Shown here: in pieces, positions 1-28,664 of the stretch
Layout: every line of letters starts with the position of its first letter
How positions within the stretch are numbered: the first letter of the stretch is position 1
Virus record (IMG/VR): IMGVR_UViG_3300030104_001409
Location: 1 to 28,664 of that record
Origin: a virus
DNA length: 28,664 nt
Reading direction: 5' to 3' (one strand)
Made by a program: the position numbers and the translations under genes
The notes under the pieces: generated by a model
Database searches by the model: none
What the model was told of the DNA's origin: nothing
Seen by the model: only the letters and a program-made list of their open reading frames with translations

Positions 1-146
1 TCCATATTGAAACTCATAATTTGAGCGTTATTAATTAAGTCTTGTGCTTCCCTTTTAATCTTTTTATCCATTTTTATCCCATATATCCACAATGCTATAA
101 ATACACAGTTAATCGCTATTGACATCCCTAAGATAAATGCTACCAT
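1..146 (-). CDS. Small single-TM protein between terL and portal (cut by window edge)
   Basis: The ATG at 146 overlaps the terminase end (the stop is at 140-142). The frame stays open to position 1, where the window cuts it. The complete version is at 27928-28095. The first 23 or so residues (MVAFILGMSIAINC..., then ALWIYG) form one hydrophobic membrane segment, followed by a charged tail. Where the two copies overlap, the single base difference at position 78 is synonymous (GGG versus GGA, glycine), which supports real coding. Function unknown. Confidence 0.7.
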   Translation of the reverse strand, partial: MVAFILGMSIAINCVFIALWIYGIKMDKKIKREAQDLINNAQIMSFNM

Positions 147-715
147 CTTACGCTTTCCATAATCTTTTTAGTCGCCGGGAATAAACGATTAATACCATAC
201 CCTATTGCATCTGATGCGTGTGACTGCGTACTGTCTCGTTTGTCAATATCGTTTCCGTGCCATACGTTTCTTTCAAAGTCCATAATAAGATTTGGGCAGT
301 TCTCACAAGAGAAGTTGCCATCACGTATCAACTTGTTTACTGAATTAACACGCTCACGTACAGGCGGATTGCCTTTAGGTGCTGATATACTATATCCCGG
401 ATTACTTCTAATTATTTGGTGGTCACTTGATACTGCTGATGAACGTCTTGCACTACCACTAGCATCCGGAAAGCATTTGGCTTCTGGGTATCTCTTTACT
501 AATTCTTCAACCATATCGTATGTTGTTGCGTTCTTTAATCTCACCTCGTCAAATACGTGTATCCAATTAGGTCCTATATAAAAGACTTCTGTACTCATAG
601 CATCAACATTAAAGTCAAAAGCCAGACCAATCGGCAACCCTTCGTTCTTTAGATCGGGACGTTCAACAACGTGCTTATCTCTATCAAAGTCTTTATATAC
701 TCTCCCTTGCGTTAG
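1..715. repeat. Terminal direct repeat, left copy (diverged)
   Basis: This stretch matches 27950-28664 at a constant offset of 27949 with no insertion or deletion. By hand alignment about 59 of 715 bases differ. Positions 1-77 and 626-715 are identical, and the differences are concentrated between 78 and 625. Both copies keep the large terminase frame open. The arrangement fits the two ends of one circular or permuted genome taken from two strains. A genuine second terminase copy is possible but less likely. Confidence 0.9.
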
Positions 716-8801: not shown

Positions 8802-8936
8802 CTAACTAAAAAACAACAATATAAATGTAAACACTCCAAACATAAATAATAAGCATAAAGCTTCTTTTATTCTTTCGTTCCTTGCTCTAGCTTTTAATTC
8901 TTTAGCATAAGGCTGTGGCTTCCATTCTACTTTCAT
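8802..8936 (-). CDS. Small membrane protein, 44 aa
   Basis: ATG 8936 overlaps the stop of the 139-aa gene (TAATG) and TAG is at 8802-8804. The N-terminal half is charged (MKVEWKPQPYAKELKARARN) and the C-terminal half is a membrane helix (LCLLFMFGVFTFILLFF), giving a tail-anchored topology. Function unknown; it is co-translated with the ART-like protein. Confidence 0.7.
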   Translation of the reverse strand: MKVEWKPQPYAKELKARARNERIKEALCLLFMFGVFTFILLFFS

Positions 8937-9355
8937 TATTTGTCCTCTTTTATTTCTTTTTCTTCAACCCAAATCATATCATCGGGATTTAATATTACTT
9001 CTGATTCTTCTCTCGCATTTGTGAAAAATAAAATATCTTTCTTGTATATTTCTCCTTCATAAACAATAGCATCTCCGCCTAGTGGCTGAAATCGTAAAGC
9101 AAACATATAAGCAACCTTGACATCTATTGTCCAAGAAACTCCTATACTACTTTTGTGATTATCTTTAACAAGAATACCACGATAAACTTTAACCATTTCT
9201 GGTAATTTGTCATATATTTCTTGTGAGTCTTTATCTGCTTTGCTTTTTACTTCGCTAAAAAACCCTAAAACAACATCCCAAGATTTAAATACATTCAAGG
9301 GAAATTCTGTTTCTATATAAGCATCTATTCCTTGTTGTTCTATTAATTTATTCAT
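8936..9355 (-). CDS. Possible ADP-ribosyltransferase-like protein (R-S-E motifs)
   Basis: This 139-residue protein shows three elements in the order expected of R-S-E ADP-ribosyltransferases: VYRG (R59) after a strand, GVSWTID (S74-T76) followed by the helix VAYMFALRF, and REESEVILNP with E117/E119 in ExE spacing. Phage T4 Alt and ModA are known examples that modify host RNA polymerase early in infection. The overall size is small but sufficient. Its place as the second gene of the early operon fits a host-takeover role. This is motif recognition only; target and activity are unproven. Confidence 0.5.
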   Translation of the reverse strand: MNKLIEQQGIDAYIETEFPLNVFKSWDVVLGFFSEVKSKADKDSQEIYDKLPEMVKVYRGILVKDNHKSSIGVSWTIDVKVAYMFALRFQPLGGDAIVYEGEIYKKDILFFTNAREESEVILNPDDMIWVEEKEIKEDK

Positions 9356-9546
9356 TAGTTGTCCTCCTTTATTAATAATTCTAAAAGGCAGTTTATTTTT
9401 ATACGAATGACTTCCATTTCAAAGTGTGTGATCATTCGTTCATCTTTAGATAGTTTTTTAAAACCTAAGCCAAAATCTTCTTCAGTTCTTATTAACCTAC
9501 CTAAACGATTGTTAATTTTTTCAAGTGTATCGCTTATATTTCTCAT
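9355..9546 (-). CDS. Helical hypothetical protein, 63 aa, first early gene
   Basis: Starting at ATG 9546 (MRNISDTLEKINNRLGRLIR) the protein is a predicted all-helical, probably coiled-coil peptide. The same frame is open up to ATG 9663, but that extension runs through the interleaved inverted repeats and has an unprotein-like composition, so I prefer the internal start. If the promoter at 9670-9699 is right, an ATG at 9663 would be almost leaderless, so the 102-residue form cannot be dismissed. Its stop couples to the ART-like gene. Confidence 0.6.
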   Translation of the reverse strand: MRNISDTLEKINNRLGRLIRTEEDFGLGFKKLSKDERMITHFEMEVIRIKINCLLELLIKEDN

Positions 9547-9570
9547 TTTATTACTCTTTCTTAAATGATT

Positions 9571-9661
9571 ACCGGGACAAAAATCGGTGCTTAAATCGAC
9601 CACAGACGTTTGTCCGTTGTGTGTATGTCCCGGTGAATTATTTAATTGAATCGATTTAAGC
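9571..9661 (-). ncRNA. Structured leader with interleaved repeats (candidate pseudoknot)
   Basis: Reading the minus strand: arm A GCTTAAATCGA (9661-9651), arm B ACCGGGACA (9634-9626), arm A' TCGATTTAAGC (9599-9589), arm B' TGTCCCGGT (9579-9571). A pairs perfectly with A' (11 bp) and B with B' (9 bp), and they interleave as in an H-type pseudoknot, with spacers of about 16, 26 and 9 bases. A quasi-palindrome ACAGACGTTTGT (plus strand 9602-9613) lies in the middle spacer. It falls between the promoter candidate and the first early gene. Either a regulatory RNA or nested protein-binding sites would explain it. Confidence 0.45.
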
Positions 9662-9669
9662 ATACCTTA

Positions 9670-9699
9670 AGTATAATGCTAAAGCTATATTAAATGCAA
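9670..9699 (-). promoter_or_regulatory. Candidate sigma70-type promoter for the early operon
   Basis: On the minus strand, TATACT (9675-9670) matches the -10 consensus at five of six positions. TTGCAT (9699-9694), 18 bases upstream, is a weak -35. The predicted start is near 9663, just at the first arm of the interleaved repeats. It lies between the late terminator and the first early gene, the only gene-free interval of more than about 200 bases, which supports the call more than the -35 does. Confidence 0.5.
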
Positions 9700-9761: not shown

Positions 9762-9796
9762 AAAAAAGCCTCATATCGCTTGAATATAAGGCTTTT
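9762..9796. terminator. Strong rho-independent terminator closing the late operon
   Basis: On the minus strand, AAAAGCCTTATAT and ATATGAGGCTTTT form a 13-bp stem (one G-U wobble) around a seven-base loop, followed by a T-rich run. It starts about 22 bases after the stop of the last late gene (9819). A-runs on the other side make it plausibly bidirectional. The rest of the interval 9547-9818 holds the promoter candidate and structured leader. Confidence 0.9.
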
Positions 9797-27931: not shown

Positions 27932-28095
27932 TCATACATCCAATTCTTGTCCATATTGAAACTCATAATTTGAGCGTTATTAATTAAGTCTTGTGCTTCC
28001 CTTTTAATCTTTTTATCCATTTTTATTCCATATATCCACAATGCTATAAATACACAGTTAATCGCTATTGACATCCCTAAGATAAATGCTACCAT
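27928..28095 (-). CDS. Small single-TM protein between terL and portal (complete)
   Basis: ATG 28095 overlaps the end of the terminase copy and TGA at 27928-27930 overlaps the portal ATG. The 55-residue product has an N-terminal membrane helix (VAFILGMSIAINCVFIALWI) and a charged tail with KKIKREAQDLINNAQIM. Both junctions are coupled, supporting coding. A membrane protein between terminase and portal is unusual and its function is unknown. The cut version at 1-146 differs by one synonymous base. Confidence 0.75.
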   Translation of the reverse strand: MVAFILGMSIAINCVFIALWIYGIKMDKKIKREAQDLINNAQIMSFNMDKNWMYE

Positions 28096-28664
28096 CTTAC
28101 ACTTTCCATAATCTTTCTAGTCGCCGGATGCAGACGATTAATCGCATAACCCATTGCATCTGATGCGTGTGACTGTGTACTGTCTCTTTTATCTATATCA
28201 TTTCCAGACCAGACGTTTCTTTCAAAGTCCATAATAAGATTTGGGCAGTTCTCACAAGAGAAGTTGCCATCACGTATTAACTTATTTACTGAATTAACAC
28301 GCTCACGTACAGGCGGATTAGCTTTAGGTACTGATATACTATATCCCGGATTAGATTTAATAATATAATGGTCACTATTTACTGCGGACGATTTTCTAGC
28401 ACTACCACTTGCATCCGGAAAGATTTTAGCTTCTGGATATTTCTTTACTAATTCTTCAACCATATCATACGTTGTTGCGTTCTTTAATCTTACCTCATCA
28501 AATACGTGTATCCAATTAGGTCCTATATAAAAGACCTCTGAACTCATAGCATCAACATTAAAGTCCATACCAATACCAATCGGCAACCCTTCGTTCTTTA
28601 GATCGGGACGTTCAACAACGTGCTTATCTCTATCAAAGTCTTTATATACTCTCCCTTGCGTTAG
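27950..28664. repeat. Terminal direct repeat, right copy (diverged)
   Basis: Second copy of 1-715, colinear with an exact offset and no gaps. About 59 substitutions, including 17 amino-acid changes in the terminase part, mostly conservative (Arg/Lys, Ser/Asn, Ile/Leu), and no frame break. The pattern is that of a related strain, not of sequencing error. Confidence 0.9.
28089..28664 (-). CDS. terL: Terminase large subunit, partial second allele
   Basis: The frame enters from the window end and is open to TAG at 28089-28091, encoding about the last 190 residues. It is the nuclease half: GIGMDFNVDAMS, FPDASGSARKSS and SHASDAMGY carry the acidic residues. Relative to 140-1357 there are about 17 replacements over some 166 residues. 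Upstream sequence lies outside the window. It is followed by the membrane peptide and portal, exactly as the complete copy would be after circular closure. Confidence 0.9.
   Translation of the reverse strand, partial: LTQGRVYKDFDRDKHVVERPDLKNEGLPIGIGMDFNVDAMSSEVFYIGPNWIHVFDEVRLKNATTYDMVEELVKKYPEAKIFPDASGSARKSSAVNSDHYIIKSNPGYSISVPKANPPVRERVNSVNKLIRDGNFSCENCPNLIMDFERNVWSGNDIDKRDSTQSHASDAMGYAINRLHPATRKIMESVRW

Follow-up and report, generated by a model that had tools for sequence, protein, structure and literature searches.

Two inverted repeats interleave just ahead of the first early gene of an uncultured phage, and the question that they raise is whether this stretch acts as a folded RNA or as a set of DNA sites, and what it does for the genes behind it. 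The DNA that we analysed, called the window throughout, is 28,664 nucleotides long. The original prediction, made from its letters alone, had placed here a possible pseudoknotted leader RNA, with nested operator sites for a phage regulator as the alternative, downstream of a promoter candidate and upstream of the first early gene. This location holds when the element is read on the minus strand, as we do here because all recognisable genes run in that direction.

Geometry of the element

On the minus strand the order of the parts is P1 5' arm, a 16-nt loop 1, P2 5' arm, 26 nt that contain a hairpin (P3), P1 3' arm, an 8-nt loop 3 and P2 3' arm (Table 1). From there a 24-nt spacer with the Shine-Dalgarno-like site AAGAAAGAG leads to the ATG at 9546 of the 63-aa first gene. 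P1 and P2 are both perfect and interleave as 5'-P1-P2-P1'-P2'-3', which is what defines an H-type pseudoknot and agrees with the topology that had been proposed. The prediction had also given perfect arms of 11 and 9 bp; the perfection and the 9 bp stand, whereas the longer arm is 12 bp.

We observed no second arrangement of this kind in the window: when exact stems were scanned for, with 8 bp or more in each arm and a total span of up to about 120 nt, this was the only interleaved pair. Furthermore, an architecture scan that required an ATG at the start of P1, interleaved stems and an open frame gave the window leader a score of 53.4, in comparison to 46.4 for the best match in a 3.48 Mb Markov control. 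Both results bear out the earlier view that such pairing is unlikely to arise by chance.

Table 1. Features of the leader region in the window.
Feature	Position	Strand	Description	Basis
Intrinsic terminator	9764..9796	(-)	perfect 13-pair stem, -13.7 kcal/mol, T-run	
Promoter	9670..9699	(-)	-35 TTGCAT 9699-9694, 18-nt spacer, -10 TATACT 9675-9670	sequence
Leader ORF	9547..9663	(-)	39 codons from ATG at predicted +1	sequence
P1 5' arm (arm B partner)	9651-9662	(-)	TCGATTTAAGCA, 12 bp; includes U and G of leader AUG	
P2 5' arm (arm A partner)	9626-9634	(-)	TGTCCCGGT, 9 bp	sequence, pairing covariation
P3 hairpin	9617-9612/9607-9602 (9602..9617)	(-)	6 bp, 4-nt loop, between P2 5' and P1 3'	
P1 3' arm (arm B)	9588-9599	(-)	TGCTTAAATCGA	sequence, pairing covariation
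Loop 3	9580..9587	(-)	CCGAUUUU, links P1 3' to P2 3'; conserved A is alignment column 79	
P2 3' arm (arm A)	9571-9579	(-)	ACCGGGACA	sequence, pairing covariation
Shine-Dalgarno-like site of first gene	9554..9562	(-)	AAGAAAGAG, in 24-nt spacer conserved in most relatives	
First early gene	9355..9546	(-)	63 aa, ATG 9546, no family match	

Relatives among uncultured phages

No relatives of the leader region were found among deposited phages by blastn. Cultured relatives were found neither for the leader region nor for the tail protein, and the terminase matches were all below 60% identity. The same 90-92-nt leader heads the early genes in about two dozen uncultured phage contigs of IMG/VR. We call the contigs with this leader Group I; among them are 16 different leader sequences, almost all with a length of exactly 92 nt. 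These relatives are metagenomic contigs and were gathered by protein searches (second gene, Sak annealing protein, tail protein and replication protein) as well as by one P2 pattern and two P1 patterns. Two of them, L206 and L214, were recruited by the P1 patterns without reference to P2 or P3, and both retain P2 as well as P3, the latter with additional compensating changes; relatives found through distant proteins likewise keep both helices.

The exact P2 pattern matched bacterial genomes 14 times, in no case with the full architecture as judged by eye, and a short 16-base pattern gave chance matches only. The reading that L006 has a P1 of wholly different sequence was rejected, P1 being TGsTTAAwwCGA with covarying positions.

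Covariation supports an RNA fold

The main alignment (A6) comprises 15 distinct leaders, two of them missing one base, and was scored over 27 pairs. Standard pairs fill 97.0% of the paired cells, and 12 of the 27 pairs show two-sided change, in 33 cells; none of 500 shuffles reached these values. When the partners were slid by 1-3 columns, pairing fell to 30-41% of the cells. The shuffles leave sequence relatedness in, while the slid controls remove it and agree. A second alignment (A4), which takes in the more divergent L074, gave 96.8% paired cells and two-sided change in 14 pairs and 38 cells. Compensatory changes occur in P1, P2 and P3, and among the relatives 5 of the 6 pairs of P3 changed on both sides. 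Thus, the covariance check that had been proposed for both stems came out on the side of RNA, and we found no relative within Group I that lacks the pairing of either stem. We conclude that the first 92 nt of the early mRNA very probably fold into a pseudoknot kept by paired mutations, in line with the leader RNA that had been suggested.

The helix energies of P1, P2 and P3 sum to about -35 to -39 kcal/mol, and the best nested fold lies at -22 to -28 kcal/mol. The penalty for a pseudoknot is roughly 9-10 kcal/mol, which leaves about -27 kcal/mol for the knot. P2 and P3 are also recovered by RNAalifold, a program unable to draw pseudoknots. Two further pairings were set aside, namely a bulged form of P3 (CACA-ACG/CGT-C-TGTG), dropped in favour of the 6-bp form because by eye it is broken in L061 and L065, where the 6-bp form is intact, and a helix between P1' and loop 3 (columns 62-66/79-83), which shows no two-sided change and is not claimed.

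Neither the window nor its divergent relatives had a match in Rfam at the gathering threshold, the weak E-value matches being unrelated and elsewhere, and a known riboswitch, ribozyme or sRNA was rejected on this ground. A tRNA-like structure was not found either. Judged by sequence, the pseudoknot leader is a new RNA family, as the prediction, which knew of no match, had anticipated.

Several loop bases are invariant in the alignment (A17, A21, A22, T26, T27, A45 and A79). Directly before the P2 5' arm, loop 1 carries the pattern AA...T (AATAAT, AACATT or AATTAT; window 9637-9642, minus strand, columns 21-26), which is kept in the A6 leaders and could possibly be a sigma-dependent pause site or a groove-binding loop.

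Promoter and transcript start

The -10 hexamer of the window ends 6 nt before the leader ATG, and this distance is 5-6 nt in all 17 Group I leaders examined and 7-8 nt in the divergent L096, L166 and L190. The hexamers themselves vary (TATACT, TATATT, TACATT, GACATT and others). As a background, of the 665 gene-strand ATGs in the window, 67 have a hexamer of at least 4/6 ahead of them at a spacing of 5-7 nt. Given the -10 spacing, the first base of the transcript is probably the A of the AUG or lies no more than 1-2 nt from it, at about 9663, so that with this predicted start the AUG would lie at or very near the 5' end of the mRNA, much as in leaderless messages. We saw no sign of a transcript start downstream of 9589, which had been named as an observation that would speak against the leader RNA.

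The terminator listed in Table 1 is the clearest one that the gene strand of the window has. It closes the late and lysis genes just ahead of the early promoter, about 100 nt upstream of it, which suggests that one promoter may drive the entire circular genome. The two ends of the window (1-715 and 27950-28664, in the terminase gene) are 91.7% identical over 715 bases; the contig thus seems to form a closed circle that joins two strain variants, with a genome of about 27.9 kb that is probably circularly permuted. In one relative (L005:880-1300) an apparent tRNA-Asp 3' half, as judged by eye, takes the place of the leader, and an integrase-like region comes after it. This tRNA half may be an attachment site, which would suggest temperate members.

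An open frame through the pseudoknot

In every Group I leader, the ATG at the 5' end of P1 opens a frame across the whole pseudoknot. Over 19 Group I leaders, stops number 0, 25 and 46 in frames 0, 1 and 2. Column shuffles that preserve the pairs gave a mean of 2.76 stops in frame 0 and none in 42 of 5000 cases (p about 0.008); common ancestry accounts for part of this openness. Both the A and the U of the leader AUG are invariant; the A is unpaired and the partner of the U varies, so pairing does not explain their invariance.

The frame is also coupled to the gene that follows. In 10 of the 27 tabulated leaders it fuses with the first gene, as in the window, where it continues to give an ORF of 102 aa (9355-9663). 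In the other 17 it stops between -17 (L190) and +26 nt (L166) from the start of the first gene, 15 of them between -10 and +8, with the recurrent overlaps TAATG, TAAATG and ATGA. Indeed, in L058, where 68 nt are inserted between leader and gene, the frame still ends in TAATG, and compensating indels preserve the frame between L098 and L100 (one base each) and between L074 and the rest (two bases each). We found no conservation of the Group I leader-ORF protein beyond the residues fixed by the helices, and no synonymous excess, the synonymous fraction being 0.22 in frame versus 0.32-0.33 in the other frames. What is retained in the relatives is an open frame that ends at or overlaps the next start codon, as in a coupled upstream ORF. 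Neither this frame nor P3 was part of the original prediction, and together they change the likely mechanism.

First genes are exchanged behind the leader

In most relatives the first-gene ATG follows 23-25 nt after the end of the P2 3' arm, and the leader lies 92-101 nt before the gene in L058 and L065. Leader identity among the relatives is 60-100% (median 78%). Between first genes, the median identity over the first 75 bases is 57%, close to what gapped alignment of unrelated sequences gives. The contigs L030 and L002 have one leader and promoter in common and carry different first genes. Since first genes differ behind the same leader and none is constant, autoregulation by a fixed first-gene product was rejected.

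The second early gene of the window (8936-9355, minus strand, 139 aa) belongs to phrog_4776, of unknown function; Pfam gave no match for it and PDB none of significance. An RG...SWT...E pattern, seen by eye, resembles that of ADP-ribosyltransferases, a candidate likeness. A second structured element precedes other early genes (L061:10990-11069, L129:1736-1803, and in L058 between leader and first gene). Its closing stem, TAACCACTTCG/CGGAGTGGTTA or GACCGCTCCG/CGGGGCGGTC, encloses a hairpin, and a decoy, AAAGAGGAA, lies upstream. The loop of the hairpin reads ATTCCTC or TCTT; it is complementary to the Shine-Dalgarno behind it and varies together with that site.

Divergent lineages with the same plan

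The architecture scan returned 40 matches in 3.48 Mb of loci versus 2 in the equal-sized Markov control (maximum 46.4). Besides Group I it recovers L133 (whose leader is common to L098, L100, L134 and L135), L153, L190/L192 and L166, with L096 just above the control maximum, and these leaders do not align with those of Group I. L142, L152 and L147, from the stem scans, share the plan too. In all, six further lineages of other sequence have P1 over the AUG, an interleaved P2 and a frame open to the first gene. Multiplied across seven lineages of distinct sequence, the probability that the frame is both open and coupled comes to 1e-7 under a first-order Markov null, a value that assumes independent lineages, which these may not fully be. 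L142 and L152 have no convincing -10 plus -35 pair ahead of the ORF, which lies there close behind the preceding gene.

In Group II (L098, L100, L142, L147, L152 and L153) and in L190, the P1 5' arm has a GGAGG-like sequence or GGAGATG, and the P1 3' arm is an anti-Shine-Dalgarno, for which the real Shine-Dalgarno would be an alternative partner. In folding with P2 intact and the 5' arm missing, the Shine-Dalgarno was predicted to close in L098, L100, L153 and L190/L192; the prediction was weak for L152, and L142 and L147 showed no such closure. In Group I no consistent closure was predicted in any modelled state. Sequestration of the Shine-Dalgarno, as in riboswitches of that type, is thus not consistently predicted for Group I and partly so for Group II only.

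A common descent of the two groups is suggested by their position downstream of tail and lysis genes and by a first gene that looks similar by eye in L070 and L098. In L142:2026-2142, L152:5745-5860 and L153:6155-6269, P3 changes from GCAAC/GTTGC to GCAGC/GCTGC with synonymous codons of the leader ORF (QMQRQLL); part of their leader peptide may therefore be under selection at the protein level, unlike in Group I.

Proposed mechanism and alternatives

The pseudoknot probably controls the start of ribosomes on the early proteins of the phage. We give about an even chance to one particular form of such control, a start-codon-masking pseudoknot in a near-leaderless leader ORF that is translationally coupled to the early operon. 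The sequences show that the fold covaries, that the frame is open and coupled to the first gene, that the -10 box keeps its spacing and that first genes are exchanged; from them we infer initiation at the near-5'-terminal AUG, masking by P1, melting by the ribosome, and the direction and signal of the control. Transcription would begin with the ATG at 9663 or no more than a few bases from it, and the first 92 nt would fold co-transcriptionally into the H-type knot of P1 and P2, with P3 between the P2 5' and P1 3' arms. P1, locked by P2, would mask the leader AUG at its outer end. Ribosomes would load on the nascent 5' end before P1' exists, or once something opens P1, and those translating the leader would melt the knot and so arrive where the first early gene starts. 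To get there they would either continue in the same frame or terminate no more than a few bases away and re-initiate. The element would then be a gene-independent translational gate of the early operon, below which first genes are swapped. Two observations bear on the last step: the first gene has its own Shine-Dalgarno, so that it may not need the coupling, and this site is not predicted to be systematically sequestered in Group I, so that leader translation need not change first-gene expression.

Among the alternatives, chance inverted repeats in a non-functional spacer are refuted by the covariation and the recurrence, and we give them practically no weight. Nested DNA operator half-sites for a phage regulator would account for the inverted copies of two words next to the promoter, and a parallel change of two binding sites could mimic covariation. 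However, the non-Watson-Crick cells on the mRNA strand are G-U rather than A-C (20 versus 1), which neither DNA symmetry nor the opposite strand would give. As P3, a hairpin with a 4-nt loop, covaries as well, and the fixed length of 90-92 nt and the open frame also speak against such sites, our findings argue against the operators allowed for in the original prediction, which we consider highly improbable. A site on the RNA for a phage or host protein, or a metabolite riboswitch, shutting or opening early translation, deserves more attention and is a minority possibility to keep in mind. A compact conserved knot with invariant loop bases is what such a site would look like, and it could even be the signal input of the masking model; in Group II, moreover, the anti-Shine-Dalgarno of the P1 3' arm is held by a 5' decoy, with closure predicted in L098, L100, L153, L190 and L192. 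Against it stand the missing constant first gene, which excludes autoregulation by its product, the lack of an Rfam riboswitch match, and the pairing-neutral drift in P1, P3 and most loops, which leaves little invariant sequence.

Two other explanations place the effect on the transcript rather than on the ribosome. A nascent-RNA antiterminator like put of HK022, in which the knot would bind the host RNA polymerase and allow read-through of a long early, perhaps whole-genome, unit, fits a leader that stands at the very start of the early transcript and is independent of the first gene, in a genome with all genes on one strand and the clearest gene-strand terminator just upstream of the promoter. 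The invariant A...T spacing of loop 1 agrees with a -10-like NANNAT at about +22 to +27, in comparison to +23 to +28 for the -10-like site of putL (PMC9378689), and the distance of the leader from the gene in L058 and L065 means that contact with the ribosome-binding site is not needed. We nevertheless regard antitermination as unlikely, since put consists of two stem-loops and not of a pseudoknot, the maintained and coupled open frame would go unexplained, and terminator-like sites downstream occur at chance level. Less likely still is a 5'-end stabiliser, in which P1 would bury the 5' end from pyrophosphohydrolase and 5'-dependent RNases and so block the start of mRNA decay. It suits a P1 that begins at or within 1-2 nt of the predicted +1 and, again, a leader that does not depend on the first gene; a simple hairpin would suffice for this, however, and the second interleaved helix, the fixed length and the coupled frame are all left without explanation.

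Returning to the start-codon-masking pseudoknot, a broader reading, to which we lean somewhat less than evenly, is that of a widespread and undescribed early gate of phages, in which a 5'-terminal knot hides a near-leaderless start and itself begins a coupled ORF, as a reusable cassette, in some lineages with a decoy. Only ribosomes on the nascent transcript, or those arriving after a signal has opened P1, would then feed the first gene, and in the lineages with a decoy the 5' arm would occupy the internal anti-Shine-Dalgarno and create a two-state switch. Few natural phage mRNA pseudoknots have both covariation support and a regulatory setting, and a compact 92-nt family with more than 12 natural variants that state which bases pair makes the fold directly testable. 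If the knot does gate a near-leaderless start, it will offer a defined case of ribosomes against co-transcriptional folding at the 5' end of an mRNA, and a natural 5' cassette that works ahead of unrelated genes.

Comparison with known systems

The single parts of this leader have precedents, and their combination was not found in the literature searched; judged from its parts, the proposed control would be a new form of translation-coupled leader control. In the IncI/ColIb-P9 repY-repZ system, ascribed to Asano and Mizobuchi in 1998 (a work cited in PMC10724649), a leader peptide and an RNA pseudoknot reportedly control a replication gene: the leader peptide is said to open a hairpin, whereupon a distant loop pairs near the repZ site, with an antisense RNA in control. 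Our leader likewise has a short ORF coupled to the gene that follows, and its RNA pseudoknot would take part in the control. Unlike in repY-repZ, the whole knot lies inside the leader ORF and begins at its AUG, with all arms within that ORF, and the first gene is not fixed.

The put RNA of HK022 resembles our leader as a structured RNA of about 70-90 nt that opens a phage early transcript, downstream of the early promoter and independent of the next gene, with a possible -10-like site in the same place (PMC9378689). It binds the beta' zinc-binding domain and suppresses termination. The form differs, put being two stem-loops with no pseudoknot and with no leader ORF in its definition, and polymerase binding would be hypothetical here. 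The gene 32 leader of T4, T2 and RB69 likewise has an H-type pseudoknot in a phage mRNA leader, followed by an A+U-rich ribosome-binding region (PMC3014915). The T4 knot, however, autoregulates one gene (SSB) from 67 nt upstream of its start codon, whereas here the knot begins at the predicted +1 within an open frame, the first genes differ and that of the window has no family match.

With respect to coupling, there is a likeness to the B12 riboswitch of ppe2 in M. tuberculosis, a structured leader with a uORF whose stop overlaps the next start (AUGA) and on which translation of the next gene depends, by termination-reinitiation (PMC11260477). That RNA is a ligand-binding riboswitch of another fold, and its uORF has its own Shine-Dalgarno and is not 5'-terminal. 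Finally, the 5' stabilisers of ompA, ermC and aprE share with our leader a 5' end occluded by base pairing (PMC3997798); those are simple hairpins or stalled ribosomes, whereas here it is a covarying pseudoknot within a coupled ORF.
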